NCBI RefSeq assembly: GCF_040183065.1
Contig: NC_091131.1
Location: 11,723,300-11,787,299 of the forward strand
Reading direction: 5' to 3'
Source: Periplaneta americana
Taxonomy: Eukaryota; Arthropoda; Insecta; Blattodea; Blattidae
Length of the DNA: 64,000 bases
Of this stretch, positions 14,773-44,000 are shown piece after piece (within the stretch, counting starts at the first letter, position 1; the number at the start of each line of letters is the position of its first letter). Below the pieces are notes generated by a model. That model searched no databases and was not told the DNA's origin. It saw only the letters and a program-made list of their open reading frames with translations. The translations under genes and the position numbers were made by a program.

Positions 14773-14924
14773 TTACAATGGCAGCATATCTTTCTCAGCA
14801 ACGGAACTAAAAATGACGTTCGCTACGTTCTTGAGAACTGTGCCGAACGCGATTTCCATTGCTGGTCTCACTTCGTCCCACAGAAGACTCCAATCGTCGT
14901 TCAGAGCGGCTATCGTGGGTTTCG
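14773..14924 (-). CDS. takeout gene A, exon 6 (last)
   Basis: The acceptor is GTGTTACAG|CG. The exon completes a GCG codon with the G left by exon 5, then reads [18 protein letters not shown] and ends ...[12 protein letters not shown]. [15 protein letters not shown] followed by [11 protein letters not shown] matches the conserved takeout C-terminus. The satellite array begins only about 140 bp beyond the stop. Confidence 0.88.
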
Positions 14925-16002: not shown

Positions 16003-16064
<62 letters not shown>

Positions 16065-19000
16065 GTTATATGTTGTTTTGAATTTATATACGGTTTTTTT
16101 CGATAGTGAAACATTGGAATCATGACATTTCATATTAGACTAAACGTACGATTTCAAATTCTCTTCGATTTTGGAACCACAAAATTGTGAACACACATAA
16201 CAGTTTATCACGAGCCGCCACTGGTTCACTCTATTAAGGTTTGTTTACCTGAAGCACACAATGCTTTCCATCCATGGCACACATGAGTTCGGAAAATTTA
16301 ATTTTTGCCAATATCCTTTCTTCCATCTTCGTGAAAGTGTCCTCAGAGAACAAGGGCGTCCATAGGATTTAATCTCAGTGGTAGCAAGATGGTTAGAAAA
16401 TTATAGGAAATGGATGGACGAGGAGAGAGAAAACTGAACATGAAAAAATAGCCAGTTCTGAAATCTAAATTACCTTGCGCACGCATTCATAGCTTAAGCA
16501 CTCGTTTTTTTGTTGAATTGTTTACCGAGGGTTTGAGAAAACGTGTATCGTGCACGTAGAGAAAAATAAAGAAAATGCCTAAAAATAAAAATCTCAGTGG
16601 TAGCGGTAGCAATTGCTGCCATTGGCTATCCCATGTGGGCGCCCTTGTCAAAGAAGTGCCACGGGTGGCTACCGACTCCCTCCCACGGTTATTTTTTCTT
16701 CCCGATTCCCTCCGAAGCAGTAATCTATATACTAATAATGAATCTGTAGCCGAAATTTTTCTGGTAATTTTCGATTTTCCAAAAATAATTGGTCCTAACA
16801 TATATAATTAACCACCCTGAAACCGAAAATCGCTTTTTTGACATTTTTTTTGTATGTCTGTCTGTCTGTATGTTTGTTACCTTTTCACGCGATAATGGCT
16901 GAACCGATTTCGATGAAAATTGGAATATAAATTAAGTTCGTTGTAACTTAGATTTTAGGCTATATGGCATTCAAGATACATTATTTTAAAGGGGGGTTAT
17001 AAGGGGGTCTGAATTAAATAAATCGAAATATATCGCTTATTATTGATTTTTGTGAAAAATGTTACATAACAAAACTTTCTTTAAAAATCATTTCCGATAA
17101 GTTTTATTCTCTGAAAAATTTTGATAGGACTGATATTTAATGAGATAAATGAGTTTTAAAATTAAAATAACTGCCATCTAAGGCGGTGTATTGATATATA
17201 AAAAACAAATGACTTCGTCTACAAGGGGCCTTGGACACAACAATCGAAAGCTATGAAACATAGGCTACAGACAATGTTTCTGTGTTTGTATGAAACTAAA
17301 TTAACCGATTTGTATAAATAATTATTATTTCATCAATGGAAAGTGTAGTTTCTCTAGATGGACATAATGCTATAATGTTATTACAGTAACTTGTGAGTGA
17401 ATTGAGGACAGGTAAGATTAAAATAGCTTTTTATGCACAGAAAACTTGATAGGTTATTCTTTTTTTTTTTCACTAAGTTCTTAACAGTTTTTATTTTACT
17501 ATTTCTTCATATATTAGCTCATGCGATAAGTATAACATTGTAAACTAATTTCATAATAATGGTCCATGGGCGTGAATTTGAATTTCTGTATATTCATTTC
17601 CTGTATTTCTTAAAATAATGTTTATGAAAATATTCATTTTTATCTCAGAGAATTAACGAACAACGAGAGTGTATTGATTTCGTATGCAGTAATAGTACGT
17701 TAGCTTAGTAATCCATTATTGTATAATTCAAATTTTAACTATGCTCAATTGAATCGTGTTGAAATACATAAAATATATATGCAATAAATGCAATGCAAAA
17801 AAATTGGGTAATGAGCCAAGCAGATTATGTTGCGCTGTTGTAAAAGCTGTTCCTCCTGAGATTCAAGAGCTCCCACAACAAATAGAAAACTTTCTAATTC
17901 GAGTACATCCGTTATCAACACACTTTTTACGTAATATAATATAATATAATATAATATAATATAATATAATATAATATAATATAATATAATATAATATAAT
18001 ATAATATAATATAATATAATATAATAATAAATCTGTAGCCAATATTTTTCTGTTAATTTTCGCTTTTCCAATAATAATTGGTAATAACAATTAAGAAACA
18101 TGTTAAAGGAATTGTCATTGCACCAAATGAGTGGTCTCTGGATCAAAATGATCGCATTTTAATATTTTAAATGCAATTTAAATTAAGTAACATATTAAAC
18201 GATTTATCCTTCTATCAAACACGAATGTTCCCTGGATCAAATGGCCTATTTTAATTATGTAATTACTTTATATGTATTTCTAACGGGTGCAGCGGAGCGC
18301 ACGGGTACGGCTAGTTGTAAATATATCGATTTCCTCCGCTCCAAAAAGGAGCTGCTGGAATTAAATATTCCGATTCCCTCATCGATCGTTTCATTTCGCA
18401 GATGCCTAATTGCGAAAAAGTAAGAGCATTCTTTGACTATGTAACAGACAATTACATAGATGACGATGCCCTTTTCCCATCAATTCTATGGACTGAAAAT
18501 ATCACTGCTTAAAGTTAGGGTATGTCATTTTGAGTCAACCTGCCCTACAAGTAGTAAAAATGACACAGTAACCAACTTGATGTTGGTAGCGGCACGTAAT
18601 ACTCACCAAGCTCCTGGTTTCCATTGAAGAGATTCTCGAACTCTGTTTCCAGCTTGGTGATGTTCGAGATGGTCAAGTCAAATCTAAAAACGTTCCAGTG
18701 TTCGTTTCCTTTCTTTATTTCGGGTTTCGCTTCAAAATTGACATGTATATGTGCGTTCTCTGCAAGGAAATATTTCACATTCATTAGCGTCAACTCTCGA
18801 TGGCTTTAACAGCATCATAATAGTACATTATGCAACGAGCCTATAGTGGTAGTAATTAAGAGGCGAGTATGTTATGAAACGAGCGCAAGCGAGTTTAATA
18901 ATTTTCATACGAGCGTCTTAATTACCATTATAGGCAAGTTTCATACGTTAGAAAGCATGTTGGAAATATTCAGATTGTCGATTAATATAGATAAACACAA

Positions 19001-22000
19001 TATAATATTTGTTACTCAGTCAAATGACAAATCAATGTAAAATAATGACATATTATATGGTCATTAAGTTTTATATACATGAGCTACAAATTGCAAACGT
19101 TTTCGCCCATTCAGGCATCTTCAGGCACAATTATACAATATCTCAATATCAAACTATGTAGCTATTATATTGGTGGTAGTTTTATAGTGATCTATACAGT
19201 TGCCACGTTCAAACGACGTGAGTACTTTTAATTATCCAATCCGATTACACTTTTACGTTTGATAATTTCCTATTTCTATTTCATATTTATTTATATATTT
19301 CAGACATAATTCATCACTCATTGGACTCTACTGAACAAGAGTTTCAATGAATATTATGAAGTTTAATTACAACACTACGTGGTTTTTAACATATTGTTTT
19401 ATAGTGATCTATACAGTTGCCACGTTCAAACGACGTGAGTACTTTTACTTATCCAATCCAATTCCGATTACACTTTTACGTTTGATAATTTCCTATTTCT
19501 ATTTCATATTTATTTATATATTTCAGACATAATTCATCACTCATTGGACTCTACTGAACAAGAGTTTCAATGAATATTATGAAGTTTAATTACAACACTA
19601 CGTGGTTTTTAACATATTGTTTTATAGTGATCTATACAGTTGCCACGTTCAAACGACGTGAGTACTTTTACTTATCCAATCCAATTCCGATTACACTTTT
19701 ACGTTTGATAATTTCCTATTTCTATTTCGTATTTATTTATATATTTCAGACATAATTCATCACTCATTGGACTCTACTGAACAAGAGTTCCACAGAATAT
19801 TATGAAGTTTAATTACAACACTACGTGGTTTTTAACATTATTTTAATTTATGACTTGTAATATTACATTTTAATTATGGAGATGTTTTGTACATCATTAA
19901 TCTTAAACAGTTTATCTACCACCAATATAATAGCTACATAGTTTGATATTGAGATATTGTATAATTGTGCCTGAAGATGCCTGAATGGGCGAAAACGTTT
20001 GCAATTTGTAGCTCATGTATATAAAACTTAATGACCATATAGGCCCTAATATAAGTCATTATTTTACATTGATTTGTCATTTGACTGAGTAACAAATATT
20101 ATATTGTGTTTATCTATAAGTTTCATACGACTTTTTATGCTCGACCATATTTATAACTTGAAATTATTCATAAGTATTCATGTTATTCTTATCTGACTGA
20201 GGAGCGGAACTGACCTTGTGCAATATCTCGTAAATTGTGAGATGTGCGCAGACGCGAAAGTATTGATTTTTTCCGAGGAACAAATGTCGTTAACCTTGAT
20301 ATAATCTAGAGAGTAAAATGAACATTAATCTTGATATAACCTTGAAATTGATTTAGACACTGAAAAACGAGATGACAAATTGAATTTATTTGAATATTAT
20401 TTACAACTAACGCTAATTATTATAGTAACAGAACATAACTTTCTGCGACAGTATTGGATTTCCAGCCTCCGTGACGTTTCGCTAGTTGTCTTTCGATTGC
20501 ATATCCGAGAATAATCAATACTTGCGCTTTCATATTGCTACAATGGCGTTTTCTGATTGGTGGAATACCTGAACTTTAATGAATAGGTGTACTTTAATGA
20601 GGTCCATTAAAGGGCTGCTACCAGGTGTATAATTACTGCATTTCGGCATGGTCGAGCATAAAATATATAATTGAACATTGTATTTTGTAAGTTTAAACTA
20701 GGAGTTGTTTGTTAGTATTTGTTTACATTTAAAAATCAGGATAAATGAAGAACAGTATTGAAGACTTCTCCGGAATAAGGATGTAACCAACAAACCTAGT
20801 ACAATTCATGTTTCAGGAGACAGAAAAATTTATTGGCGATATTTTAATACAGGGTGCGTCAGAAAGAACGGATGGATTTCACATGGCAAGAAAATTGTAA
20901 AGATTCATCAAATCAAAAATTTATTGTTATCAACATATTCACCAATACATGCAGTTTATTTATGTAAAACAACATTATCCATATGATGTCCTTGGCTTTC
21001 AATGTAGGCATCGAGGCGTTTTCTGATGTTCGCCATCACTTTCACAGTCATAGCTGGTGCAATTGCCACGATTTCTTCACGAATCGCTGTCTTCAGTTCG
21101 TCCAGTGTATGTGATCGATGTTTACAAACTTACGCCTTCAAATGGTCCCAAAGAAAGAAGTCGCAGGGCGCGAGATCTTACCGTAGCCTCGGACAATCTC
21201 AGTGCAATAGAATTTCGTCCAGGTGATTTCTTCTTTAATGTTGAACCTGTGATACGAAATGAAGCCACCCACCGCAAAATTGTATTCCGAGTTGGAATCC
21301 TAGCGTGACATCCGATGTCGAAATGAGTCCTGAGTGGCGATCACAGACTCTTCATTTTTCAAAAATGTCTCTACGATGAAAGCACGTTGTACACCAGACC
21401 AACACCATATTCTCAACTGAAACTGCATTCTATGGCTGACCCAACAGTCGTGGTCCCCCTCACTATATCTCTCTCCTCGTTGCGTATCGATAGTTTGAAA
21501 TCCATCTGTTCTTTCTGACGCACCCTTTACATCTTCACAGTACCTTTGCTAGATCACAACTGAACTCCATATGAAAGGTTTACTTTTTAAACAGAAAATT
21601 GGCGTGCTGTGTCTAAGCAACTATTACAATGCAGTGAACAATACAAAACCCGCAGCCATTAAACTTTGAATGAACAGAGATTCCTTCAGCGACGTCCTTC
21701 ATTTTGCATACGAACCTGAAGACACATCAGTACAATAAAGCGTCTCATTTAGGCACAGTGAAAACGTAAAGTGCAGGTAACATGTGGGGGAGGACGAGCC
21801 GTACGATAAACACGAGGGATGTACAAGGTTTTAGTTACAACATTATGGCGAAGCATTAATTGAAATTAAATTTTCCAAAAACATACAAAACAAAAGAACA
21901 CAAATTGCATAACGTTATCATATACACATTTTAACAAACAAGCAATTGTAACGTTGAAATAATTCAATATAACAAATCAAATTTTGCTACTTATATCAAA

Positions 22001-25000
22001 TACCTTACTACCGGGACATCACTTTATTTTTACTTCCATTTTTATTGTACCTGAGTTTCTGAATGTACTTGACTCCCATCCCTTGCAGTAATGTTCTTGC
22101 ACCCCTCAGCCACACAAACTTACGGCCGCTGTTGCATTCGGAGTCTGCTAGCAGTGAAGTAAACAGTACAGAGTATAGTGTGTTTCAGAAATATGGTTGC
22201 GTTTTCTATAGAAGAAAGAGCCTATATTATTGAAATTTATATCCAGGGCAGGTATTTATGGAGATTAATTACATCATTTGTGTTTTTTAATATTGGTGTC
22301 GGAGGAGATTGTTGGAGATTGATTTGTACTCTTGGCGGGTATTAATGGAAATTTTGGAAAATACAATTATTTTGGAATTGGAGTATTAACTCAGTATGAA
22401 TGTTACTTTCCAAATAATTAACATTAAAGGTTCGTTGGATTCTGGTAAAGGTGCGGTATGGCCAATAGACAATATTTGTTGGATTGAGACTGTATTTAAC
22501 ACACATTAATTAAAAACAAAAAAAAAAAAAAACTTGCAGCCCTTAAATTAACACTTTTTTTTATCCAATTTAATAAACCCTATTTCACCCTGAGGTATAT
22601 TAGGGTTATAGTTGGTATCACTTTCAAATTATTAGTGAAAATTTGAATTCTCCGTCTTTTGAGTTCACTAATGTAATCAGAACACCTGGAATACCATGTA
22701 AGTCCACACCTGTGGAGTAACGGTTAGCGCGTCTGGCTGCGAAACCAGGTGGCCCGGGTTCGAATCCCGGTTGGGACAAGTTATCTGGTTGAGGTTTTTT
22801 CCGCGGTTTTCCCTCAACCCAATACGAGCAAATGCTGGGTAACTTTCGGTGCTGGACCCCGGACTCATTTCACCGGCATTATCACCTTCATTTCATTCAG
22901 ACGCTAAATAACCTAGATGTTGATACAGCGTCGTAAAATAACCCAATAAAATAAATGAAAATACCATGTATTGTAGCCTACTTGAATGTATAACAAATTC
23001 AAAGGAAAAAAGAAAGTCCAAAAAAGAATTCAGAATATGAAATTCGCTATAAAACGACCCAATAGTAATAATTCGCTATTGTGTTCATATTTCGCTATTA
23101 GAACTCTATTTCGCGATTTATCACGATTGTTTCATCGGTATATTATTAATCAGAATCACTTAATTCGTAAAGATTAGTAACTCTCTATTGTATATCTATT
23201 ATGTCGTGATTTTCGCGATCTCCATAAGCACCTGGCCCTGCTTGTTTCGCACAGGTACGGTGTGTAGCATGACTGAATAACTTTATCTGTGTGGACTGAG
23301 CAGAAGTGAAGATTAAATTACCGAAAGTACGGTAATATGCTGAATAAAGTAGCCATTATATGATGAATACAACCGCCTGAAGAGTTGAGTTTGTGAAAAA
23401 AAAAAACTGTTACTACTCTACTGTATTTTGTTAAAATACCGTGAAAGTAATAAACAAACTGAAAATCGTAATATCGTATTTCCCCGCAACATAAATGGAT
23501 ACACTACTTTTCTCTCCTCCTATAGCTAGTAAAATGATTTGTTTACGTATTGCACTAGTAACACCAAACTCTTGTAGTGGAAGGGGTTAACAGTGCTTCC
23601 GAGTATAACCAGGTTAATGTTAAAAATGTTGGTAAAAGTAAAGTGATGTCCCTGTATAATAATATCGGACAGCTAGTAGTTCTGCGCGCGAACGACGCTG
23701 GTGCTGCTACCTAGGCGGCCGGTGTGGTAATACTCGCGAAACAAGCTGTAATCAACTGCAGTGTATATTGTTGCTGGGCTAGTTAACAGTTTTATTAATT
23801 AGTGCTGTGTTAAAATGTCAGGGTGTATATGTGCTGTTTATAATTGCTACAATTACAGCATTACAAATTGCTCGAAATCGTACTTTCGATTTCCGAGAGT
23901 TCATAAAACGTGAGTCAACAAAATTCTTTATTAGGTCTAATACCTTTGTCTCTGTGTCGATAGAAAAATAAAAATTAGCTTTTTTATTTAGGCCTAATAA
24001 ATGAATAGAAGTTAAAATATATTGGAAATTTTAAGGTTTTAGCAAATTAAGTTGTATTGTTGTCCACATGCCTTTACTAATAATTACAAGCATCAGAATA
24101 CTACCATTTTTATCTTTGCAGTCGTCAGCAGTGGGTATATAAAGCATTATTGTAAATTCATTCCTAATGCCAGAATTAATTTTGTCTCACTAAAGCAAAG
24201 AAAAAATACGCAACAATTAATTACGGAAAATAATATGAAGCATGCAATATTTATCATAATATGCAGTTTTGATATAAAATAATGTTACATTAAATACGAT
24301 ACTATTCAACATATCTTAAGTGTCTCGTATATTATTCCACATTATTGTAGTACCTCACATTTTAAACAATAGTCCGATTTCCGCTATGTTAATATTAAGT
24401 ATTTGTGGACGTAACTGCACACCGCTCCGCTAGATGTTAAGTCCGCGATATTTCACACTCACGTCAATGCTGCTAGTATACAGCTATCCGGTATTATTAT
24501 AGTAAGGTATTTGCTTATATGATGTTATCACATTCTACTATATATAGTCACGAAGCTTGAGTTTTGAGGGTGCTAGAAACAATAGACTGTGACGGTACTA
24601 TTTTGCATTGCCTGTAATGAGGCGATATTAGCGATCCTAGTGGTGAGCAACTACCTAATGTTTGCATATTTACTACGTATTGAGCTTCGCGACTGTATTT
24701 ACTAGACTGTGATGTTACTTTCAAGCAGCATTTTTTACGGTCATGAATTTCATTCTCTGTATGACTAACATAATATCACCGTCTTCTGTGGCCGAATTAA
24801 CAAAACTACAATATATTGGTCTGAAGTGACAGCACTATTTGCTAAACATTATTACAGTACTGTAGTTTTATTAAGCAGCCATAAGATGCAATCCAGCAGT
24901 CAGTGGCCTTATCTGATAAAACGCCTCGTACAATAATTCAGTGTCAATCACAGAAAATCAAGAAATGCCAACAAAATTTAACTTTGAAAATTGTGTTTTC

Positions 25001-28000
25001 AGTAACTGTAACTTAAAGCAATAAATAAATGTCTGTAAAAACCTTTAGTTTTTTATTCTGTTAATGTAACATTTCAGCTTATCTTACTTTTGAGGTTAAG
25101 TATTGCTGTTTGTATTTCCGCTCTGAGTAGTCGGCAGTAGTATTTAGTATGCCGTGATAGAGAGCAGTTTCATGGATAAATATATAATAGGATGCGAAAC
25201 TTAATGAGTTTCCCGTAACACATACTAGAGGCGCTGTTATAGAAATTGATCTTGCTGCCATCTATTTTTGGGAGAGGCGTTATTACAAATAGCAGCGCAC
25301 CAAGTATCGAAAAGAGTAATTACTCCATGCATTTAGCAGCGCACCTGGTGACGAAAATGTTAAACTGTCCAGAAAGTATTCGCTCCCACCCTCATAGATA
25401 TTCAAAACTAGCCTAATTTAAAATAAAACATTTACAGTTTTACTCCTCACAGCATATTCTACTGAAAATTCTTACCGGAGCCAACAGGAAGATAAAAGAG
25501 ACGATGTGTTTTACATTACCCGATTAAAATATAACCAGACAGAGACAAAAAATAAAGCAAAAGGTTAGATAATTGGGATTGTATTCTTTGGATATTTATT
25601 GTACAGCACAATGGAAAGTCTGCAAGAACTACGTAGATAGTTCAATTTATTATATTACCATTACTTTACAATACATTCAACACTATTTTTACAACGTCCA
25701 TAAACATCACTGTTTAACATACACTTCTTATACACACACGTATCACTTTATGTTCACTTATTAGTAAGTTTCAGTCCGCCATCTTCGCTCCTCGACTCTC
25801 CCATACAATATCTCGAACGGATAAATAGAGAACTCTCAGTTTTTTTTTTTTTTTTCCCATAAGTACCAGGTCGAATTTGACCCTTTCCTTTTGAAAGAAT
25901 TGTAGGAGATCATATGATAAGTTATAACCTAAAATATTTCAAGGCAACGTTATCTACCAATGGTAGAGTGAGCAAATTGATACGGTCATGTATGAGAAAC
26001 CGGTATATTTTTACTTATTAGTGGATTTGGATGGTTGTGGAGGGATGCTAGAAATTTTGTACGAAGAGTTTTGATATAATCTGAAAAGTATAGTATCCCA
26101 AGATCATCATACAGTTGGCTATTTCGGATGAGATAGTCCGCTCCAGTGATGGTTCTGCAGATGGCTCGTTGAAGTCCGTCTAGTCGTTTAAGATGTCATG
26201 TATGTGCTTGAGCCCATATTTCACAGCAGTATGTCATGTAGGATCGAATTAATACTTTGTACAGCATTGTTTTGATATTTAAAGACGTATAACTCTTGAA
26301 AAATGAGTAGAGAAGCATATATCTTTGGAAGGCCTTCTCACGAATATGTGTGACGTGATGTTTAAAAATAAGTCTCTTATCAAGAAGAACTCCAAGATAC
26401 TTGACGGTAGTTTTGAAAGGTATATTTTCATTTTGGATGGTGAAGGGCTGAAAGTGCCGCGGAAATCTTCGTGTAAAAACAACTGCTTGCGACTTGGAGC
26501 CATTTATCTTGAGATGCCATTTTGTGGACCATTGGGTTATGATATTTAAGGCTCCCTGCATTTGTAGACAAGCAAACTGAATGTTTATGTGCTTAGTATA
26601 AATAACAGTATCATCAGCGTATAGCATAAGTTTACATTTGGATTGAATTGGTATATCACAGACATATGCACAGTACAGTGTTGGACTTAAAACCGATCCT
26701 TGAGGAAATCCTGCAGTTATTGTGTGAGCGTTAGAGAGATAGCGTCCGTCTTGAACACGAAAGGTTCTATCTGTAAGATAACTGGCGATAAGTTGAATAT
26801 AATTTACAGGAATGTTAAGATTGTGAAGTTTATATAACAAACCGGTGTGCCAGACAGTATCGAAAGCTTGCTGGATGTCAATAAATGTAGCTACTGTATG
26901 CTGTCCAAGTTGAAATCCTGTTTGGATGCATCTTGTTATTCTGTGAAGTGCTTCTCTGGGACTATGTTGAGGTTTAAATCCAAACTGTTCATGGTGGATG
27001 GCATTTGGTGCAGTTAAATATGGCTTTAGTCGTGCCAGAATGATACGTTCAAAAATTTTTCCAAGGAAGTTGGTTAGGCTGATTGGTCTATAACTTTGGG
27101 GTAATGTTGGATCTTTTCCCGGCTTAACTATTGGTATAATATGTGCTGTTTTCCATGCTGTTGGAAAATAATTATGATGTAGACATGAGTTGAATATCTT
27201 TGTTAAATGTGTTATGGCTCTTTTTGGTAATTTCTTCAATATGGCTGGTGTGATTTTATCCGGGCCAGGTGTCTTCTTCGGTGCTAAGTTTCGAATTATG
27301 GTCTTGATTTCTTGTGGTCGTACGTGAGGTGTATTTCCAGGTTCAGGGCGATGTAATATGGACTGTACATGTTGTGATATTGTTGTTGAAAAGTCTTGTA
27401 GTGAGGAATGATGATGGGAGGAGAATCGATTTTGGAAGGAGTTTGCAAGAGCTTCAAGCCTATCAATAGGATCATAATTAAATGTACCACTTGAGTCTTT
27501 AATAGGTGTCGATTTTTTTGTGGTAGTTTTTCCCAGCATTCGTTTTGTAAAAGTCCAGAAGGTTTTTCCTGTAGGCTTAATGTTTTCCACTGTGTCGGCA
27601 AACTTATTGATTTTGTAAGTCTCATATTTTCTTCGGATAGCACGTTGATACCGATAAAAAGCTCTTTTTGCTTGAGGATCCGCATAAAGCTGCCACCGTT
27701 TTCGAGCTTGATTTTTGGCTTTAAGAAGATGTTTTAGTTCAGTACTACCGTAGATGTTATCTGATGTCTCAATAGTCAGTGTAGAGGACGATTCATCGAA
27801 TGTTTCTATGATAGTGTCAGAAAATATTTGTATAGCGGTGTCTATTTCAGAAGATTTCAAAGTCGGTAGATTAGCCGGGATGATTTGGTGCAAGCGTTTC
27901 GTGAAGAAATTCCAATCTGTAACTTTCTCTGTAGAAGGTTGACTTGAGATCATATGAAAGGGGGCCTTGAAAGTCAAAAGAACTGGAATATGGTCAGAGT

Positions 28001-31000
28001 CGAGAGCGTTTAAGCAGATTTGTTGTACTGGAGAGTATTTTGTGTTATATAAACAAATATCAAGTACATCTGGATGATGAGTGGTTATCCAGGGAATTCT
28101 CGTTGGTTCTTTAGGTCCTGTAATTGAATAATGATATTGATTTGAATGTAATAGTAAGGTTTCACCTTTCGAAGTATTTAGTCTGGAATTCCATGATCTG
28201 TGTTTAGCATTGAGGTCGCCACAGAAAATGAAATGTTTGTGATGTGTGATAAGCAGGGTCAGGTCATTTTTATTGAGTTGAGCATATGGCGGATAATAAA
28301 CAGATGCTATTAGTATTTCTGTTCCTTCAAGCTGGATGAATATACCAGTGGCTTCGAGAGTCTGAAAATTTGGAAATATGGCTGTTCGATATGGCATGGA
28401 GTTTTTAATGAGTATAGCAGTTCCTCCACCAGGTCGGTTGATTCTGTCTGTACGGATAACAGTATAGTTGCGTATACGAAATTTCATGGTGGGTTTTAGA
28501 TGAGTTTCACTGATACATGCGAGGTCAATATCATAATTAAGGAGCAAGGCTTGTAGTTCGTAAGTCTGGTGAATTATTCCGTTTGCATTGAAATTTAAGA
28601 TGTTTAAACCTCTGTGTTTGGAAATCATTTAGAGGTCTTTTATGGATTGTTGTAATTGAAAAGATTAATGAAACCTTCAATGAATATTATTACCTTGGAT
28701 ATTGAGTCATTTGCATTTTGGATTTTATGAAAAGTTGTGCGGATAAGCTGAATTGTATGTTGAATGTTCAGTGAGCGTAAGATGTTAACAATATCTTTGA
28801 AGGAGTCTGATATTGATTCTGATGATGTTGATGTTGCACTTGGAGTATTGAATGTTGACTGGAAAGCTTTGGTGTTGCCAGGATTAGCAAGTAAAGGAAA
28901 GTCGCTCTGTTTCCATGTTGGTGGAGTAGAACGTTCTTCGGAAAGAATTCTCCTGTTCCTCATCTTCTCTTGAGAACTCTCAGTAATGTACCCAACACTT
29001 AGTTCTAATGTTCACCACCTACGACGCCAGGCGCTGATCACCTTATTTCAGAGCACCAAATCCAGATGGTGCTGACCGCAGTTTCGCATCCTATTATATA
29101 TTTATCCATGGCAGTTTGTTTTTGAACTTCATTACAAGGAAACATAATAATGCCTTATTGCTGTGTTTTATAATGATTATCATTTATAAGTAATTCGGTT
29201 TTGCAAGTTATTTAGTTTTATTTTTGGGTAACCTTATTAAATTGCGCTCGTGGTTTCATCTTATTATGTAATTGAAGAAAAACATTTAAGCTCCTTTAAT
29301 TTATGACAACTAAAAGTAAACAACTTATATTTAAATAATAGCCTACTTTCCAAAAATCATATTAATAAACATAATTCCATCAAGATGATTTAATATTCAA
29401 GGAATAGCCACTAGTAAAGAAACAGTTCAATCTATTCGAATACACAAAGCAGTGAGTACCTACTTATAATAAGATAATTTTAAGATTGAATATTCTGGTT
29501 ATAAACTATTGAAAAATAAATATATCCAAACCATCCCAATATAAAAGAATTTGTAATTAAATTTGGATCAATAATTAACATTCTTATTCAATATCGATAA
29601 TTGTTATTGTTTGTGAAAATTCTCATGCCATATTTTAAGCTGTATTTCCAATGTCACTCATTCTATGATGGTTAGTCAGCGACAGACTGCCTGATAGGGA
29701 GAAGTTACTTAAGATTAATTTAATATAATATACTTATGGACTTCTTAAATGCAAATACCAACCTATTTTTCCTACGGATTTTCCTTCTCCTGTTACGGGC
29801 AGCACAAGGAATTTCCCATCCATGATGTAATTCGAATCAAGAGTTAACAGTGGAATGAATACGTCTACTTCGACATGCTTGTTGGGTATATCGATGCTGA
29901 AAGAAACCATGATCTCAACGAAAGAAACATACTATTTATAATAGTAATCACTTCTGATCCCTTTTAAAAGCAATTACTTCTTTAGACTCAAAAGAATTAA
30001 CAGTGGAATGAATACGTCTACTTCGACATGCTTGTTGGGTATATCGGTGCTGAAATAAACCATGATCTCAACGAAAGAAACATACAATTTATAATAGTAA
30101 TCACTTCTGATCCCTTTTAAAAGCAATTACTTCTTTAGACTCAAAAGAGTTAACATTGGAATGAATACGTCTACTTCAACATGCTTGTTGGGTATATCGA
30201 TACTGAAAGAAACCATGATCTCAACGAAAGAAACATACAATTTATAATAGTAATCACTTCTGATCCCTTTTAAAAGCAATTACTTCTTTAGACTCAAAAG
30301 AGTTAATATTGGAATGAATACGTCTACTTCGACATGCTTGTTGGGTATATCGATACTGAAAGAAACCATGATCTCAACGAAAGAAACATACAATTTATAA
30401 TAGTAATCACTTCTGATCCCTTTTAAAAGCAATTACTTCTTTAGACTCAAAAGATTTAACAGTGGAATGAATACGTCTACTTCGACATACTTGTTGGGTA
30501 TATCGATACTGAAAGAAACCATGATCTCAACGAAAGAAACATACAATTTATAATAGTAATCACTTCTGATCCCTTTTAAAAGCAATTACTTCTTTAGACT
30601 CAAAAGATTTAACAGTGGAATGAATACGTCTACTTCGACATGCTTGTTGGGTATACCGATACTGAAAGAAACCATGATCTCAACGAAAGAAACATACAAT
30701 TTATAATAGTAATCACTTCTGATCCCTTTTAAAAGCAATTACTTCTTTAGACTCAAAAGATTTAACAGTGGAATGAATACGTCTACTTCGACATACTTGT
30801 TGGGTATATCGGTGCTGAAAGAAACCATGATCTCAACGAAAGAAACATACAATTTATAATAGTAATCACTTCTGATCCCTTTTAAAAGCAATTACTTCTT
30901 TAGACTCAAAAGATTTAACAGTGGAGTGAATACGTCTACTTCGACATGCTTGTTGGGTATATCGATACTGAAAGAAACCATGATCTCAACGAAAGAAACA

Positions 31001-31995
31001 TACAATTTATAATAGTAATCACTTCTGATCCCTTTTAAAAGCAATTACTTCTTTAGACTCAAAAGAGTTAACAGTGGAATGAATACGTCTACTTCGACAT
31101 ACTTGTTGGGTATATCGGTGCTGAAAGAAACCATGATCTCAACGAAAGAAACATACAATTTATAATAGTAATCACTTCTGATCCCTTTTAAAAGCAATTA
31201 CTTCTTTAGACTCAAAAGATTTAACAGTGTAATGAATACGTCTACTTCGACATGCTTGTGGGGTATATCGATACTGAAAGAAACCATGATCTCAACGAAA
31301 GAAACATACAATTTATAATAGTAATCACTTCTGATCCCTTTTAAAAGCAATTACTTCTTTAGACTCAAAAGAGTTAACAGTGGAATGAATACGTCTACTT
31401 CGACATATTTGTTGGCTATATCGATGCTGAAAGAAACACACAATAATAGTAATCATTTCCGATCCCTTTAAAAATAATTACTTCATGTATAACATTGTCT
31501 GCACCGGTTTATTATTTAGAACTTACACACTGCTGGTATTATTTTATTCAAAGCAAATAGACAAAAAATAGAGGTCTAGTCGCCTGAACCCATTTGGAAT
31601 TATGACAAGAATCGTTACGTAATATGACTAAAGATAAAAATGTATACAATCTTACTACAAGGCCACTTTTTACATCTATGACCGCAATAGCACATTTCAC
31701 GTTCTATTTTCTAGCTTCTTATTTGGTTAGTCAGTACCTATAGATTGTGAAAAAAATGAATATTATTTCATAAATGCTGTAACACTGTAGTAGGCTCTGA
31801 GGATGGTGTGAAGAAGCACCGAAACAGCTGTAAGCCACATGTGCTTATGTAATTTAACACGAGTAAGTTTGCCAATCAACCAATAATTTATATTTAAGTG
31901 TTAAAAGTAGTGTACGATAGATTCAAGATGGATTATTTCATAGACGAGATACAAACATACAATTACTCATACATTATTAACATTTGGCTTTCTAA

Positions 31996-32054
<59 letters not shown>

Positions 32055-35000
32055 TATTTTTTTACTATTGGAGTGCAATTCTTGATCATAATGGCTGACT
32101 TTCCTTTATTATTAATTACCACGGAAAATAAATAACATTGATAATTGGGAACATGTGATACTAGTAGTAGGCAATTGTAGCCTACTTTACAATTATTTAA
32201 TCAAACCTGGTGTTTCAGTAAAAATGTATGTTAGTTCCTATTCAAATGTTTTCAGAACTTCCGAAAAACAGATTTACTTTTTTGTATTTTCGTAACTTTA
32301 AAGCTAGTAATACTGCAGTTCTGTAATCTATTTCTTTTCTGTACATTTTTTAAATTTTATTTGGTTATTAAACGACGCTGTATCAACTACTAAGTTATTT
32401 AGCGTCGATGAGATTGGTGATAGCGAGATTGTGATCAGTGAACTGCTAGTTCTTGTCTGTTTCACTGATTATATGATTGTAGAGTGGTCTATACATTTAT
32501 AATTTAACTTGTTTCATCAGTATAAGTTTTCAAATAAGATCATACAATTTCAAAGGAAAATATTATTATTGTTTTCCTCCAAATATTGAGAAACAAAGAA
32601 AGAGTGTTTGAAGGGTTCTAGCAAGAGCGAAACATTATTAATTGTGTTTAAATATATGACCAATGAAACTATTATTGTCATAGATAAACAAGTAAAGCAT
32701 ATGTTTTCGTTTTCCTCACAGTTGTCATTGTTTACCCCACATATTGAGAAACAGAGAAAGAGTGTTACATTTTTTATATACGCCCATAGACCATTGTTCC
32801 CATGCATTATATATTAAAGGAAATTGAAATATTTAAGCTCATACTTGTTCATATTTTCCAACCACAACAGTATTTCAACTTCATATCAAAGTATGGGTTT
32901 TGTTATTTTCTTCCCTACCCAGACCCTATATCTGAACTGCGACCGAACACGAACGCTGCTCATTCGATCCTGAAATTTATTAATATTTTTGTTTCCTCTT
33001 TTTTTATATATATGCATTATTTATCCCATTTCTATTGTTATATGTGGTCTGTTTTATATTCTGTATTAAGAATTAAAAATAAATGTAGTTATACAAGATT
33101 AGGGGGGGGGGAAGACTTCTGATTTGCTCATATTGGGTTGAGAGAAAGTCCCGGAAAAAACCTCAACCAGGTAACATAATATTTGAGGAGAAAAATTCGC
33201 TCCGGCGCCGGGGATCGAACCCGGGTCCTTGGTTCTACGTACCAAGCGCTCTGATCACTGAGCTACGCCGAATTCAATCCACAGCACCGTATCGAATTCT
33301 CCTCCTTGAATGTTCCCCTTTATGGCCCGACTCCAAGTTAGGCATAAATGTTGACGTATATGTCCAATGTCAACTGCCATTATACTAGGAGCGCACTCAG
33401 CTGAGTGACTTGTTTGGCCGGGATTCCGCAGTTAAGGGTTAAGTTGACTTTGGAAAGTAGAAAGTCACCATTTTCCTATTCACAGTCGACACTTTGACGA
33501 GAGCAAACTTCAATCGTGACTTTACTTCGAAGTCGCCGAAAATCTAGACTTTGACTTTGACTTTGACTTTGACTTTCGTTCGTGGACAACAGGTAAATGA
33601 CTGATATTTGGGAAATTGTTGAATTTGCCGAGAATATTGAAGACATCTAGGATATTATTAAAGCTGTTCATGTTCCTTAGGTATTATTATATATTATAAA
33701 TTCAAATCAAGGTACAGATTTGATGAACAGTATTAAATATCCTCGTCATGTTTCAACTTTCATTGATGAATAATCAAAGAGGATTATCTGTTCCACCATT
33801 AAATAATACAATTTATTTCATCGGGATTTTACGCTATAGGTAAGGATTAATAGCTTAATATTGATTCTTAGTATTTAATTTTATACAAGACAGGTTATAC
33901 AGCTGGAAATGCAGTTAATTTATAATCCTTGCGGTCGTCATAATAATGTTTTCTTCATATTGATTTCAGATAATTTTTAAGTAGTTTCTGTAAACATGCA
34001 GGGAATAACTCTGCCAACTGTCAGCAGGATAATATGTCTCTTTCATAGTCTGTCATTGGTGGAATCTCATCTTCCATATTATTTTCACAACAACATTATT
34101 TTACAATGAAATAATTTCAGGGCTTAATGTGAGACTAACGTAACTGCAATAGATGTTTTAGTCATAACAAAATTCTTAACAGGCAATACTATTTCAGATA
34201 AACATACCATCATGTTTTGTAGTTATGAATTGTGTTATATACAAGACTGTTCGAATTGAGTTACGATTTTTTGTGGCCAGGTAGAAGAACAAATTATTAA
34301 GGCCCGGTTGCAGAAACGCAAATCAAATCAGTCTCTGATCGCCAATCAGTTGATGTCTGATTTATTTGATTGTTCATTGCGTTGCACAAACGTGAATCTC
34401 CAATCAAGTTGTCTCAATTTACTAATTGCTGATTTGAGAAAGAAATACATTTGACAACAGTGCTATTTAGCAACCACAGCCAATTTGATGTTATTTAAAA
34501 GTCGCGAAACGAAAGCATCAAGTGGGCGGTGACTAGGAAAACAAGTGAATGTTCAAGTAATTGTTTTGTTTGTAGAAAGGAAACAGGTGGATTCTATTTG
34601 TATATAGACTACAATATAGTGAAAAAAAAAAAAAAAAAAAAATGAAGCCAACAAAAAAAAAAAAAAAACGTGAGGGGACTTCTGTTGTGGGATTTGCTAG
34701 GGAAGTCGACAAGAAATTGGAATATGCATAGCCTCCATAACCCAAAATAATTCCATTTCCCATCTCTCTGTTTACAAATGGAGCTCGTAACCTAACTCAT
34801 TAAAACTATTGTGTTATGTGTAGAACCCTGCCAACGGGCTACAACATTGCAGAATTTCAATGACGGTGTAGACTACATATTGCCTGTATATTCACAGAAA
34901 ATAAACCTTTTCTATTTCGATAAAGTTGGGCATCATTTCAACCAGGTGATTGGATGGGGATGTGAACAGTCTATACAACCAATATTAGGCTACTCTTGGA

Positions 35001-38000
35001 AATCCTGACATGACTGAAAATTCTCTATGGATTTCAAATCGTTCCCTGTTTGAAGTTTGGGGATTTATGAGACCCTGCCATAAAAAAGCAATTTCATACG
35101 TAACATTCCTAACTACTCGGCAAATAGTTGATTTGTGGATCCTAACAAGATAACCCAAGACCGCCTGAAAAATTCCAACAGCATAAAATCTCAGCATTAT
35201 TAGAACTTGGTTCATAGGAGAAAGTGGAAGGTTTCGATTTGTCTGTCTGCATATATTTGTTTCAATTTTTGAAAGTAACAAAACACACGAATCCTTCCTA
35301 AATCTTTGCTAAAATTTTCTGTCATTATACATAAAAACAATTAATGTCTATCACGAAAACGCCTTCTTCTTAATAATATTTTTTTCATTCCAAAATTTCT
35401 TCATCAGAAGAATCCATTATGTCGAAAACAATATTGTTACGCTATAACTATTTACTATATAATTACAGTAACTGCATTATAAACAGAACAACATAAATAG
35501 CCTACTTAATCGATGATCAGTGACTTAACCAGCAAAAATCTGTTGATCATATCTGATGGAAGACTGATCTCCGATCAAACACTGATTGTTCTTTCTGCAA
35601 CAGAAATAGAACTGATGCCAATCAAACCCTCCTTGATTGCCAATCATATTTTGATCGGTGTTTCTGCAACCGGGCTTAAGGATTGATGTAAAGGCATGTC
35701 AATTTTTGTACTTACGTTAGTTTCACAATAAGCCGTCGAATAATATTATTCTTATGTAAAGCTGCTATAACGATTAACAATTGCTTAACATGTACCGATG
35801 TTCAATTGTTTCATTGATTCAAAAGATGGCTTTGATTGTGGCAATGCTTACTCTATTTCAACTATCAATTTAATTCGTTTAGAGGGCAGTGATTGTGATT
35901 GCCAACATTAGAACAAGATCGTCAAATCTCGACTTACCAAAGTCAAAGTCAGAGTCTCAGAAGTATTGTCTATGAATAGGACTTTTAACAAAGTTAAACT
36001 TTACTACGAAAGTCGACTTTGGGAAGTCTTCATCCAAAGTCTCATTTATGAATACGGCCCTAGGCGCACAGTAATCTGTACAGACATATGCTATGAGAAC
36101 CAAGGACCCGGGTTCGATCCCCGGCGCCGGAGCGAATTTTTCTCCTCAAATATTAATTGTCAATATTACAGATATTATTCTGTATGACAAATTAATTAAT
36201 CTATAATATAGGTAATATAATGTTTCTGAACACACAGTGAATGTACGTGATACAGTCATTAAATTCTAATACTGAGCGCATAGTGGCGTTGTGGTGCACT
36301 ATAGCGCATAGGTGGCGCCATGGTATGATACCTTGTCAGTTTCTCTCTCGACCCAACAAGAGACAGTTGAGTGCATGCACTGTAAGCAGAACTACGATCT
36401 TTGTTGTGACGGTGATTTGAATGCGCACGTCGGAACCCGAGATGTCACAGTTTGAGCAACGGGCAAACATCAAGTTCTGCCAGAAATTAGGCAAAACTGC
36501 TGCCGAAACGTTTCAAATGATGCAGAAAGTTTACGATGAGGACGCAGTGTTGTGTTTAGGTGGCACCGACGTTTTTTGCAAGGAAGAGACAGTTTGGAAG
36601 ATGATGTGCGTACTGGTCGGCCACAAACAATTCGAACTGAACGCAAGATCCAAGAAGTTGCAACGTTGGTGCGTGCTAACCGCTCCCAATCGGTAGACGA
36701 TATCGCAGCAACAGTAGGGGTCAGCCATGGTACTTGCTACAAAATTCTGTCTGATGACCTGAACATGTCTCGTGTTACCCAGCACAGTGCGCCACGAATC
36801 CTGTCGCAAGACCAACGTGATGATCGCATGACGATTTGTGCTGACGATGATCCGACGTTTCTCAACCGGATAATAACTGGAGACGAAACTTGGTGTTTCC
36901 TTTACGATCCGCAACTTAAACGACAATCCGCCACCTGGAAAACGCCGTTATCACCACGACAGAAAAAACCGCGACAAGACAGGTCAAAAGGCAAGGTGAT
37001 GCTTGAACTGTTTTTTGATTCAAATGGAATTGTTCACATGGAATTCATCCCAGAAGGTGCAACTGTGAACAAAACTCGCTACAAAGAGATCCTTGGCCGT
37101 TTACGAGATTCAATTCGCCGTAAGCGACCTGAGCTATGGCGTACAAAGAATTGGCTGTTGCTACATGACAACGCCCCTGCACATCGCTCTGTCCTTGTCC
37201 AAGAGGAACTTGCAAGACAACAGGTGACAGTTCTTCCACACCTTCCGTACTCACCTGATCTCGCACCATGCGATTTTTTTCTCTTTCCTCGCATGAAAGC
37301 AACCCTACGTGGGCGTAGATTTCATTCTTCCGAAGAGGTCAAGAGAAGCCATACGGGACCTTCCTGCCAACATCTTTCAACGGTGCTTCCAGCAGCTATA
37401 CCAACGTTGGCAAACGTGCATAACGGCCAACGGAGACTATTTTGAGGGAGGATGTGATTCTGTTTAAATGTACGCCGTGTTATGCAGCATCTTGTGATAC
37501 ATCCAGATTCCTGTGGGAGCCCACCCTCCAGGCGTCAAGTCTTAGAACTTAATGACTGTACCACGTATGTTAATGAGGCGTTATTGTTTTGTCGATCATC
37601 TCGCGACCCCCAATTTGGGACTTACCTGACGTTCCTCACCTCGCACGTGCTCAGGCCTCTCAGCTTCATGTCCCTCAGATCCATGCTCAGACTCACAGGA
37701 CGATTCCGTCCTTGCTCGATCGTGATTCTGGTAATGTCCAGAGGGTCAGTGGGCAGCAGATGAAGACTAGGGATTCCTGAATTGCAGTAAATATTTATTT
37801 AGCTCTTCGTTCTTTTGTTGTAGAATATTCTGGGTCGTCTGCAGTCTCTTCGGTCTCGTATTCACCGTAGGTAAGTAGTCAGTGTGTTCTCATTAGTGTT
37901 TGACTTACACGTACTGCACGTCAGTGTAGAGTTGAAAGCTGGACTTCATAGAATAAGAAAACATGTTATAAAAATACGTTTTTAGGTACGGAGCAACTTG

Positions 38001-41000
38001 GGGTGCCGACTTATGAACTTAAGTTAGCAGTAAGTTAAACAAGAAACATGGAAGAGAATTACAGACTGATCCGTTTGGGTATACTTACTTACAAATGGCT
38101 TTTAAGGAACCCGGAGGTTCATTGCCGCCCTCACATAAGCCCGCCATCGGTCCCTATCCTGAGCAAGATTAATCCAGTCTCTATCATCATATCCCACCTC
38201 CCTCAAATCCATTTTAATATCATCTTCCCATCTACGTCTCGGCCTCCCCAAAGGTCTTTTTCCCCTCCGACCTCCCAACTAACGCTCTATATGCATTTCT
38301 GGATTCGCCCATACGTGCTACATGCCCTGCCCATCTCAAACATTTGTATTTAATGTTCCTAATTATGTCAGGTGAAGAATACAATGCGTGCAGCTCTGTG
38401 TTTTGTAACTTTCTCCATTCTCCTCTAACTTCATCCCTTTTAGCTCCAAATATTTTCCTAAGAACCTTATTCTCAAACAACCTTAATTTCTGTTCCTCTC
38501 TCAAAGTGAGAGTCCAAGTTTCGCAACCATACAGAAGAACCGGTAATATAATTGTTTTATAAATTCTAACTTTCAGATTTTTGGACAGCAGACTAGATGA
38601 CAAAAGCTTCTCAACCGAATAATAACACGCATTTCCCATATTTATTCTACGTTTAATTTCCTCCTGAGTGTCATTTATATTTATTTATTTATTTATTATT
38701 TTGCTAATAATTATAACATAACATATATTACATATAGAAAAAACTTTAGCTCGCCCCTGAAAGAGGAGAACTCGTGCTCAGGGGCGGATTCCTGGATTGA
38801 AATTAATAAGTATACAGTACAATTTGTCTTACGTCTACTATGCAATTATAGTATATACTGTAAATTTAAATTTACAATTTTTCAATTTTTATAAAATCCA
38901 TACGTAACTTTTTAAATGTAATACTAGAACTATTAGAATTGACAAGATTAGGATATTTAAATATAAATTTGTTATATATTCTTGGCCCTAAATTATTACT
39001 ATGATTAAATACTGTAACAGTGTTGCATTTTGGTTCAGACAATCTTAAAGAATTCATACCTTTTGTTTCATAACTTTGAGAATACAATTCAAAATTATTT
39101 CGATTTTTATGTATGAATTTTATTAATACAAAATAATAAATTTGTCTTACGTTAAGTACATTAAAGTCTAAAAACAAATTTTGAGATGGAAAATCAATAG
39201 GTTTATGAAGACATATTTTAATTATTTTCTTCTGTAATAAATAAAGTGGATTAAAATTGGATTTAAATGAGCTACCCCATCCTATAATTTCATACATAAT
39301 TACCGATTGAAATAAAGTTAAATATATTGTGCGTAATAAACTTATTGACAAGTAATTCCTCATTAAAACAAAATAATATGCTATTTTACGTAATTTGTCA
39401 CTGTTGGTCCAAGATATTTGAATTTTTCCACCTTTTCGAAAGATAAATCTTAGAGTCCTGTAAAAATTGTGAGGTAACACGAAGAATATGAATGCAATAT
39501 CCACCACGCACTGGAAGCGGAAGATTTGGCGAGTCAGTTCATACTCATAGTGCTCTAACACTATGTAACCTTTACAAGACGTCATGTTTCAGGTTGTAGT
39601 AATTGCTGTAAATCCGCATTGCGATGAATTAAGTTCAATATTTCCTCCATGCGTTTGCACTGTTTTTACTTACCGTCCTTCATAACTCGAATTGCCTTCT
39701 GGATGGCTGAGCGCAAGCACGTGTTGATGTTGGGATCATTTCTCTTGCATATGTCGAATTCTGGAGCTGAAAAGAGGATAGAAAGAGTGTGCAGAACCCA
39801 GACAAAAGCTGTGTTCCCATAAACAGACAGATCAAAATAGATACAGTCCTCTTCGCAGATGACCAGATTCTATTGGTCACTTGAGAAGGTATCTCCAAAA
39901 AATACTATATTCGTTAAATACAGTTGAAAAAGACAATAATATGATCATTTCTGTAGAAAAGTTCAAAGTTATGGCTTTTAAAGGCAAATACCCAACAAGA
40001 AGTAAAATCTGTATTGAAAATAGAATCCTAGAACAAGTGAACACATTTACCTATTTAGGGTACCATCTTTTATGTGAAAAAGGAAAGGATATCGATTCTA
40101 AAATAACTAATTTTGTTAAACTTATCAGCATTATCAATTCAGTTTTCAAACCTAATTTAGTACAAAAACGTACAAGATGAAAGATGTACAACTTTTAGCA
40201 CGACCTACTTTAGTCTATGGATTAGAAACCTGGACTCTGACAAAAAAGATGTTCAATGTATAGCTACTAAACCAGACCTGCAGAACTGTAGCTCCTCAGA
40301 GCTACTGCTTTACTCCCCTTTCTTACCCCACCCACCTTTTTCTACCAGGTTCTAGTTACGCTCGGCTGCATCAACATTCATTCTCGCGGCGGCAGGTATA
40401 CAATACTCTAGCAAGAATTACAAATGAACAGATAATAAAACCCTTAGGAACATACTTTAGAAGGTAAGAGAAAAATGAATGAGGGAAATAAATAAATTAA
40501 AAAATATGTAAAATAAATTTAAAAATGTATGTGTGCATATAATGTAAGAAAGTCTACTTATGTATATATCGACCTATTATTAGTAAAGCCGATTAAATCC
40601 ACGTTTTGTGTAAACTAAGTTAAGTACAGTCCCTGACTTGTCTTTCCGTGCTCTGTATTCTATTAAAATGAAATAAGTCCGAAATGTTGCATGAACGCAA
40701 CAAACCAATTACTTTATTTGAACAATTTATTACGGTTTTTCGTGCATTAATAAAGTTTTAATTCCTGTTTTTACAAAACTTGTATTACTTACTGGTCTTA
40801 ACTGGGTTTACTATTAATAGGACGATTAAATAATTTGTAGATTGATAAGTGAGTGATAGCTATATGACCGGATATCAATGCTGTCATTCAACATTGTAAC
40901 CCACTCCAGCTAGATAAATAAATAAATAAATAAGTAAATAAATAAATAAATGAATGAATGAATAAATGAATAAATGAATGAATGAATAAATGAATAAATG

Positions 41001-44000
41001 AATAAATGAATAAATGAATAAATGAATAAATGAATAAATGAATAAATGAATAAATAAATAAATAAATAAAAATATATAAATAAATACACAATACGCGTTC
41101 TGCAGTTTAAAGAGAACTGGAACATGGCAAAATCTAAACCCGTAAAGAAATACTACTTCCAAAGGAAATGGGAATATGATTAATTTGTTGAAGAGGAAAG
41201 AATTGCTTGTTTACTGTGTCCCATCCAATTTATTTCTACTCGTCATTTCAATATTAAACCACATTTCAACAAAGCCCATATTAAGAATTATGGAATGCAC
41301 AAACTTTCGGGTAAGTTCATTATTACGAACTGTATATGGATTATTTGTTTATATACTGTAAAATTAAGGACGTCACTCGTTGTACTCATTTTGAATTGAA
41401 ATTAATAGTGACTTTCAATTTTCATTACTTAAATGCTATAAATTTATGTTTCCGTAGGTGATGTCAGGAGGAAAGTTTTCGAAAATCTAAAATAGGTTAA
41501 GTGCAAAGAAATTTCAAAGAAACTACCGTCAGGAAATCTAGCATAATTGTAAACCTTGAAACGAGATAACGCATTATAAATACAATGAATTTATTACAAT
41601 CCTTTTTGAAAATTACATGCCGCCACTGATGGCCAGAGAATGTAAACAACTCTACGCGGAAGTCAATCATCCCCAATAGAAGTGGAGTGAGGCTGACGTC
41701 ATATTTCCCCTACTTACTAGTTCTGCAGGCCTGTACTAAACGAAATGAGATTCATGATGAAAACGGCGGTGTGCACATTTTGGTATAGGAAACGAAATAC
41801 AGAAAGTTGGAAGAATTGAACGTCCAACTTATATTATTATTTTTTTTTTCAAAACTACAGAATGAATTGGAAACAGCATGTCGAGAGAATTCCAACAGAA
41901 AGATGACCAAAGGCAGTGTTTCATTACCGCCCTTCTGGACAACGATCTGTTGGAAGACCATTGAAAAGATGGATGGCATAAGACTGTTGAGACCGCTCTA
42001 GGTCTAGTTTTTGAATTGGACGATGATGATTTATATGGTATTATTACATTAACACTGTTTAAGGGGAGAGGATGGTATTTTTTTGGTGAAAATGAGTACA
42101 TTTTCAAAAAAAAAATATTTAAAAAGCCCTGTGATATGTGTGGAATGCATAGCATAACATTTTGTGGTATTTGTGCCATTATCGGATGCTGAGACGTCAT
42201 TTTAAAACTTCCTGCGCTATGGATTTTTAAATCACACGCCCGCTTTTATCGGTTTCCAGTAACTTCATTTTTTTTTTTTGCTACATTGGCAGAAAAAAAT
42301 GGATATAATTTCTGAACTATTAAAGATACATGCATGAAATTTAGAACACACATCCTTTAGACTATTAGGAAACTTTTCTCTGTAACAGAATTTTGTTAAT
42401 TGATTTCATTTTAAAAATACGTCCGTTTGTTTGCAATAAAGCAACTCAGAAAATTGTTATTAAATTTTAATTATTTTACAAACGTACGGACTAATATCAA
42501 AATTCTGTTACAGACAGTTTGTAGAACATGCTTTTGCAAATACATTGCAAAAAACCGTTTGAATCTGTCTTTAGAAACGGTTTAGATATATCGGTTTTAG
42601 TACAATCCTGCGTTAGGTATATTTTTTTTTTTCAAATTTGGGCCCCCAAATAATTTTTTTTTTTTTTCAAATTTTTTTATTTGGTTGAGTTGCCACAGCT
42701 ATGAGCTCTCTACATACAAAAAATAATATTTTACACCAAATAGGAAAAAAGTTTTAAAAAATACCGTCCTCTCCCCTTAACTTAAAAATACGTACATACC
42801 CAAGGGTCACGCAAGTTGATCCCTAGTCGACTTTGGGTCTCTACCAAATAAAGTTCACAAACCCCGGAAAGACTTACAAGATAAATTTCTTCGTAGAATA
42901 TTTAATGTAACTCTCTTTCTTTATTTGTTTTTTTTTTATGTCAAACACAGACACGTTTGCCTTGTCAGTTATTAGGCCTATGGTTGCACATTTGCAATGT
43001 GGCTTGGTAATTTTCGTGAACTGGTTTTTACATGCATTTCAATTGCAGTTAATTATAGTTGTCGCTGCATAACTGGTTTCCGGCTGCAGGCTGCAGTCTT
43101 AAGGACGGTCATTCTAGTATCAGAATTCCAGTTCGTGTGCCAACGAGAAAGTGATCCACCTTGAGACTGTGATGAGTTCAGCGTGTTCCGACTGAGATAG
43201 TGCATTGCTAATTAGGCCAGGATTCGTATGGAAACGCCTATTTTTACTTGCCAGTTGAAAGTCATGTAAAAACAAAAACATTTTATACATGTTCTGAACG
43301 TCTGCGATGACTTGAGACGAGAATTTCATGCAGTATAAAATCCCAAAATATGCATTCATGCACTGTCAAACTATGAAACATGCACGATGAAGCGAAAAAT
43401 ACATTAAACTTACTTACTAACTTAATTACTTATTTACTTACTTACTTACTTACTAACTTACTGGCTTTTAAGGAACCCGGAGGTTCATTGCCACCCTCAC
43501 ATAAGCCCGCCATTGGTCCCTATCCTGAGCAAGATTAATCCAGTCTCTATCATCATATCCCACCTCCCTCAAATCCATTTTAATATTATCCTTCCATCTA
43601 CGTCTCAGCCTCCCCAAAGGTCTTTTTCCCTCCGACCTCCCAACTAACACTCTATATGCATTTTTGGATTCGCCCATACGTGCTACATGCCCTGCCCATC
43701 TCAAACGTCTGGATTTAATGTTCCTAATTATGTCAGGTGAAGAATACAATGCGTGCAGCTCTGCGTTGTGTAACTTTCTCCATTATCCTGTAACTTCATC
43801 CCTCTTAGCCCCAAATATTTTCCTGAGAACCTTATTCTCAAACACCCTTAACCTATGTTCCTCTCTCAGAGTGAGAGTCCAAGTTTCACAACCATAATGA
43901 ACAACCGGTAATATAACTGTTTTATAAATTCTAACTTTCAGATATTTTGACAGCAGACTGGATAATAAAAGCTCCTCAACAGAATAATAACAGGCATTTC

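Follow-up and report, generated by a model that had tools for sequence, protein, structure and literature searches.

The takeout locus and its surroundings

The window, a stretch of 64,000 nucleotides from Periplaneta americana (C15:11723300-11787299, in a genome of 3,231,669,367 bases and 91 contigs), contains a gene of the takeout/JHBP family, here termed gene A, and a tandem array that repeats one of its intron-exon boundaries (Table 1). The report on the assembly of this species describes 3.23 Gb of sequence derived from PacBio HiFi and Hi-C data, arranged in 17 scaffolds and 74 unplaced contigs, and names takeout among the functions showing gene-family expansion (PMC12774602). A PF06585 profile search of the genome returned at least 150 matches, distributed over C1, C3, C5, C6 and C15, with all those listed lying above the cut-off; this count is a lower bound, as 150 of 392 first-look candidates were scored.

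The predicted product of gene A matches PF06585 along its full length (207.6 bits, 2.1e-61, profile positions 4-239 of 239), and its nearest solved structure is 3e8t, Takeout-like protein 1 (1.3e-19). Together with the six-exon model, the profile match upholds the identification of a takeout gene on the minus strand that had been made from the sequence alone. Exon 1, which is predicted and has a conserved counterpart in the paralogous gene B, was missed by two stricter scans and found by a looser one. Introns 3 and 4 are long, at 7.7 kb and 11 kb respectively. Gene A is apparently intact, and its classification as a pseudogene was rejected, as all six predicted exons are open; the dN/dS ratio of approximately 0.53 between A and B (0.032/0.060) does not, though, strongly show constraint on gene A itself.

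Table 1. Gene A and the components of its repeat array, in window positions
Feature	Position	Strand	Description
Takeout/JHBP gene A	14773..50676	-	Six predicted exons, 267 aa; all introns GT-AG, frame open
Predicted exons 1-3	50676-50592, 39766-39674, 37776-37626	-	Exon joins
Predicted exons 4-6	29896-29763, 18795-18607, 14924-14773	-	Exon joins
Exon 3	37626..37776	-	Donor GT at 37625 faces eleven acceptors; U1 pairing -12.2
Complete exon 4	29763..29896	-	134 bp; first 58 bp and acceptor are copy 1; donor AG/GTTGGT
153-bp tandem array (mirage)	29839..31437	-	Copies 1-10 in exact register and part of copy 11; TRF, register table
Ten decoy acceptors	30049..31426	-	First exon base 30049 + 153k, k = 0-9; copies 2-11
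25-bp insert beside acceptor	29908..29932 (copy 1)	-	In copies 1-10; not in copy 11 or paralog B; alignment
11-nt filler TTGAGTCTAAA	29981..29991 (between copies 1 and 2)	-	Unit join; matches neither native boundary flank
Copy 11	31369..31490	-	Outermost, diverged; native acceptor context, then native intron upstream

A number of other repeats and mobile elements are found in and around gene A. Intron 4 includes an open frame of 810 aa with endonuclease and reverse transcriptase domains, belonging to a non-LTR retrotransposon (26199-28628, minus strand), and three copies of a 223-bp unit approximately 380 bp from exon 5 (19179-19838). In intron 3, two overlapping frames of a mariner-like transposase (36421-37442, plus strand) lie approximately 180 bp from exon 3, outside the stretches that align with gene B. 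A 32-bp satellite occupies positions 1-14632; it belongs to a larger array (C15:11714180-11737931) that ends approximately 140 bp beyond the last coding exon of A. Elsewhere in the window, a 64-bp array of 14.9 copies (51432-52385) adjoins a reverse-transcriptase fragment (52381-53454), and exons 5 and 6 of a further takeout gene, C, are found at 56290-61813. Exons 2-4 were not found for gene C, which has the appearance of a duplicate of gene D (C15:11843186-11860668) that has been truncated.

Anatomy of the boundary array

The array was detected by TRF at 29839-31437 with a period of 153, 10.5 copies, 96% matches and 0% indels. In each unit, read on the minus strand, a 95-bp intron segment precedes 58 bp of exon 4, and copies 1-10 are all distinct, each departing from the consensus at between one and four of 153 positions. 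The true acceptor of exon 4, with its first exon base at 29896, is in copy 1; over the last 20 intron and first three exon bases, nine of the decoys differ from it at only one or two positions, and the outermost at eight. This is the arrangement described in the sequence-only reading, which had proposed an eleven-copy boundary array in a takeout gene, units of about 95 bp of intron, an AG acceptor and 50-odd bases of exon 4, ten decoy acceptors at 153-bp intervals beyond the real one and an exon 3 donor at 37625. The first exon bases of the decoys are at 30049, 30202 and so on to 31426, and the GT of the exon 3 donor does begin at 37625. The earlier description of the period as exactly 153 bp with no indel applies to copies 1-10; copy 11 is short of 25 bp.

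The array has the features of the repeats known as 'mirages': the tandem unit spans an intron-exon boundary, a splice signal is present in the repeated units (TTTCAG at the acceptor in 11 of 11 copies), and the interior is homogenised across copies 1-10 with the edge copy, 11, left out. A DNA search of the whole genome with the array unit found, among the matches listed, only the array and one single-copy paralog, gene B, which argues against the array having arisen by chance. That the unit is a satellite or mobile repeat was likewise rejected, its listed matches being in A and B only.

The array is very unlikely to be an artefact of assembly, whether false altogether or of the wrong length, as 1.6 kb is short relative to HiFi reads. 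The size and contig count of the genome fit a PacBio HiFi assembly, and no two of the ten copies in register are alike, although tandem arrays can be mis-sized and the draft genome of amphioxus contained an aberrant assembly of one mirage (PMC3087553).

Origin of the array

The sister gene B lies approximately 62 kb from A within a tandem segmental duplication, and its exon 4 boundary is single-copy. Across the stretches retained from the comparison of the duplicated segments, 622 of 15,091 positions are mismatched, individual stretches ranging from 1.2 to 9.9%; some of these stretches lie off the main diagonal and are probably dispersed repeats. Divergence between the segments (14602-64000 and C15:11801125-11846636) is uneven, being 1-2% at the end containing genes C and D and 6-7% around exon 4.

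The intron side of copy 11 resembles that of B and continues into native intron, while copies 1-10 have in common a set of derived bases, the 25-bp insert and the 11-nt filler. On this alignment, copy 11 is taken to be the native acceptor context, as in B, and A is most likely the gene in which the array arose; the alternative is that the array is older, was once shared and has collapsed in B. The most economical history would begin with a single duplication across the boundary of intron 3 and exon 4, joined with the filler, after which the 25-bp insert would have arisen in the inner copy. This copy would then have been amplified, probably via unequal exchange between copies and perhaps partly as dimers. 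Dimer-wise amplification is hinted at by the similarity of copies at lag 2 (permutation p = 0.028; lag 2 minus lag 1, p = 0.077).

Consequences for splicing

When exon 3 is joined to any of the ten decoys, translation reaches a TAA after the sequence LLSLKK, giving 134 aa instead of 267. The premature stop anticipated from the sequence is thus common to all ten routes, and falls approximately 25 codons past the acceptor, five or six beyond the exon-derived part. The ten decoys' shared tail and their retention of the N-terminal half would favour the proposal that decoy use yields a functional, signal-bearing N-terminal takeout fragment of 134 aa. Such an isoform is nevertheless highly improbable: the C-terminal half of the fold would be missing, decay would be expected of a transcript with its stop upstream of two further exons, and the coding parts of the decoys vary mostly in amino acid.

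The coding strand of the decoy span contains 119 GT dinucleotides; the strongest U1 pairing among them is -4.4 kcal/mol, and that in the consensus unit -3.3 kcal/mol. The donors of exons 2, 3, 4 and 5 of gene A pair at -10.9, -12.2, -8.6 and -11.1 kcal/mol respectively, although that of the predicted exon 1 reaches just -5.7; among 5,268 background GTs, 0.8% pair at -8.6 or better and 28.7% at -3.3 or better. Judged by this energy criterion alone, the units are not tandem cassette exons with an acceptor and a usable donor each, and interpretation of the decoys as complete exons was rejected on the strength of the -4.4 kcal/mol maximum. A variant of this idea, in which the weak donor GAA/GTAATT, 72 nt past the acceptor, defines an in-frame cassette adding 24 residues per copy, has in its favour that 72 is divisible by three and that the phases match; with U1 pairing at the -3.3 kcal/mol so commonly met in the background, such micro-exons are extremely unlikely.

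In the absence of a good donor in the units, the sole good partner of a decoy across an exon is the true exon 4 donor, 287, 440 or more nt away, as against 134 nt for the true acceptor. Where alternative sites are present in large introns, the closest pair across the exon has been found to be preferred (PMC9225289), and rapid, accurate splicing has been reported for the long, exon-defined introns of Drosophila (PMC5762160). Given that the introns flanking exon 4 are 7.7 and 11 kb long, exon definition should select the acceptor nearest the true donor. Transcripts of gene A are consequently expected to be spliced mainly correctly, with the decoys largely ignored.

The same observations bear on whether the array might act as a splicing rheostat, with some transcripts using decoys, acquiring a premature stop and undergoing nonsense-mediated decay, such that array length lowers the output of A. 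The near-identity of nine decoys to the true site would suit such a role, as would the presence of exons 5 and 6 downstream of the stop on every decoy route and the weakness of the exon 4 donor of A (GTTGGT, -8.6) relative to that of B (GTGGGT, -12.0). Regulation of this kind is nevertheless unlikely, as the decoys have no good partner donor and lie at least 287 nt from the real one, the sister gene is free of the array, and there is no sign of the repeats being maintained.

A second mirage in the takeout family

A mirror-image form is found on C5 (locus L035) in another takeout paralog, where the 3' end of exon 4 and its donor are repeated in 82-bp units. Matches span C5:57102863-57110514 (L035, L054), corresponding to approximately 93 units as calculated from the length of the span, and include an internal duplication of 1,681 bp. 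The sequence read, which extends up to 57104600, contains 20 decoy donors; U1 pairing is stronger for 14 of them than for the true donor (-5.7), and for eight it reaches -10.7. Inspection by eye of the units in this sequence revealed no acceptor. The two arrays thus lie at opposite edges of exon 4, that in the window offering acceptors without good donors and that on C5 offering donors.

Boundary-derived arrays were present at two of 31 takeout exon-4 loci surveyed, namely gene A, the starting case, and L035. The 31 loci consisted of A, B, D and E in the C15 stretch, 20 from L034 to L053 and seven from L055 to L061, with a further 12 exon-4 matches outside the count; the flanks covered were approximately 600 bp long, except at L055-L061, where they were approximately 300 bp, and on the upstream side of L037, where they were 169 bp, and repeats with units below 10 bp were left out of part of the survey. 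Other repeats near the surveyed loci were not built of the exon edge: these were simple repeats near B, D and E and in L036 and L039, a 2.6-copy repeat in L041, and two- to three-copy repeats in L043, L044 and L047.

Across approximately 300 kb of C15, there are eight distinct arrays with a period of at least 30 and at least four copies, after merging of overlapping or neighbouring rows. At this density, and with units of approximately 100 bp, about 0.3% of boundaries would be covered and about 0.2 arrays expected at the remaining 30 loci with their 60 boundaries, with which the one additional mirage is compatible as a chance occurrence. If so, such arrays should exist in other genes of the P. 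americana genome. A broader proposal is that mirages recur on either side of exon 4 in the expanded takeout family of P. americana, where decoys cut productive splicing according to copy number, making array length a heritable expression knob and a source of new exons or introns. The effect would be strongest in the C5 gene, as most of its decoy donors read pair better with U1 than the true donor; we regard this proposal as doubtful.

Unequal variation and the preferred interpretation

Variation within the gene A array is concentrated in the exon part. Across copies 1-10 (29839-31368), 11 of 58 exon-part columns are variable compared with two of 95 intron-part columns (Fisher p = 0.0005), and diversity is 0.063 and 0.004 respectively. 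Set against copy 1, eight of these 11 exon-part columns are amino acid-changing, and variants occur in mosaic combinations across the copies. The true copy and B differ at four sites of the exon part, and at three of these the base of B is present in some decoy; in the intron part, the first columns of which align poorly in this comparison, no decoy has the base of B, except at one site where copy 1 alone departs from the other nine. Base composition was rejected as the cause, the excess being evident at both G/C (5/21 against 1/28) and A/T positions (6/37 against 1/67), and it is not a general property of mirages, being absent from the C5 array (diversity 0.138 against 0.152, p = 0.75). It could result from gene conversion from B, with the 25-bp mismatch restricting this to the exon, or from the retention of old alleles.

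The clustering of amino acid-changing variants in the exon part, the bases shared with B and the mosaic combinations might alternatively be read as a coding-variant reservoir, in which decoy exon parts, supplemented by conversion from B, would be transferred to the true exon and so introduce diversity at 19 residues of the protein. Such a function, which would require conversion into copy 1, is quite improbable, as the exon-part excess does not extend to the C5 array.

The array is instead probably a nearly silent mirage minisatellite, formed by duplication of a boundary that was later amplified and is tolerated by normal splicing, with the decoys evolving freely. Tolerance would follow from its position on the intron side of the true exon and from units that carry an acceptor without a good donor, leaving the innermost acceptor as the only one that pairs well across the exon; with transcripts normally spliced, the decoys would be free to change. 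The neutral minisatellite was one of the options raised in the sequence-only reading, and it is the one favoured by the lack of good in-unit donors, the proximity of the true acceptor to its donor, the variation among decoys and the array-free sister gene. Consistent with it are the single boundary in B, the predominance of amino acid-changing differences in the exon parts of decoys and the donors of the mirror-image array on C5. Some observations count against it. The two donors taken as real in predicted exon 1 of A and exon 4 of the C5 gene pair at -5.7 at best, such that -4.4, while weak, is not wholly beyond the range of real donors; the exon 4 donor of A is weaker than that of B; the dN/dS ratio gives no strong sign of constraint on gene A; and plain neutrality does not predict an exon part so much more variable than the intron part.

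Comparison with known mirages

Mirages as a class have already been named in amphioxus; new here are an insect case and a second in another paralog of the same gene family, which suggest that these repeats are distributed more widely than the cephalochordates. No report of mirages outside cephalochordates was found in the open-access literature searched, subscription literature being largely outside its scope. Boundary arrays could mislead gene annotation. The two takeout loci also constitute a natural experiment on splice-site choice, setting acceptors without good donors alongside donors, and their decoys, near-identical to or better pairing than the true sites and placed at regular distances, could show whether distance across the exon suffices for that choice.

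For amphioxus, it has been proposed that new introns may arise by way of mirages, which are otherwise taken as harmless. One in Adh3 was reportedly described by Canestro et al. in 2002. Others are found in globin genes, at the acceptor side in BflGb6, with units of 150-160 bp, and at the donor side in BflGb9 (PMC3087553), and in the troponin C and PGBD5 genes (PMC3902484); these accounts report no disturbance of splicing (PMC3087553, PMC3902484). Like the array in gene A, they are tandem repeats spanning a boundary, with splice signals in several copies and edge copies that escape homogenisation, as does copy 11. The acceptor-side form of BflGb6 and the donor-side form of BflGb9 correspond to the gene A and C5 arrays respectively. 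The cockroach arrays differ in being found in an insect, in their 11 and approximately 93 copies, compared with six and three in BflGb6, and in the occurrence of acceptor and donor forms within one gene family. Splicing and length instability have been studied in amphioxus, while the cockroach mirages are known from genomic sequence.

Intron gain by tandem genomic duplication, in which an internal tandem duplication is said to generate extra splice sites, is similar in the origin of those sites. By contrast, no new intron is evident in gene A, and each unit contains one kind of splice site. As a predicted full-length member of the takeout/JHBP proteins (PF06585), the product of gene A is ordinary; the oddity of the locus lies in intron 3.
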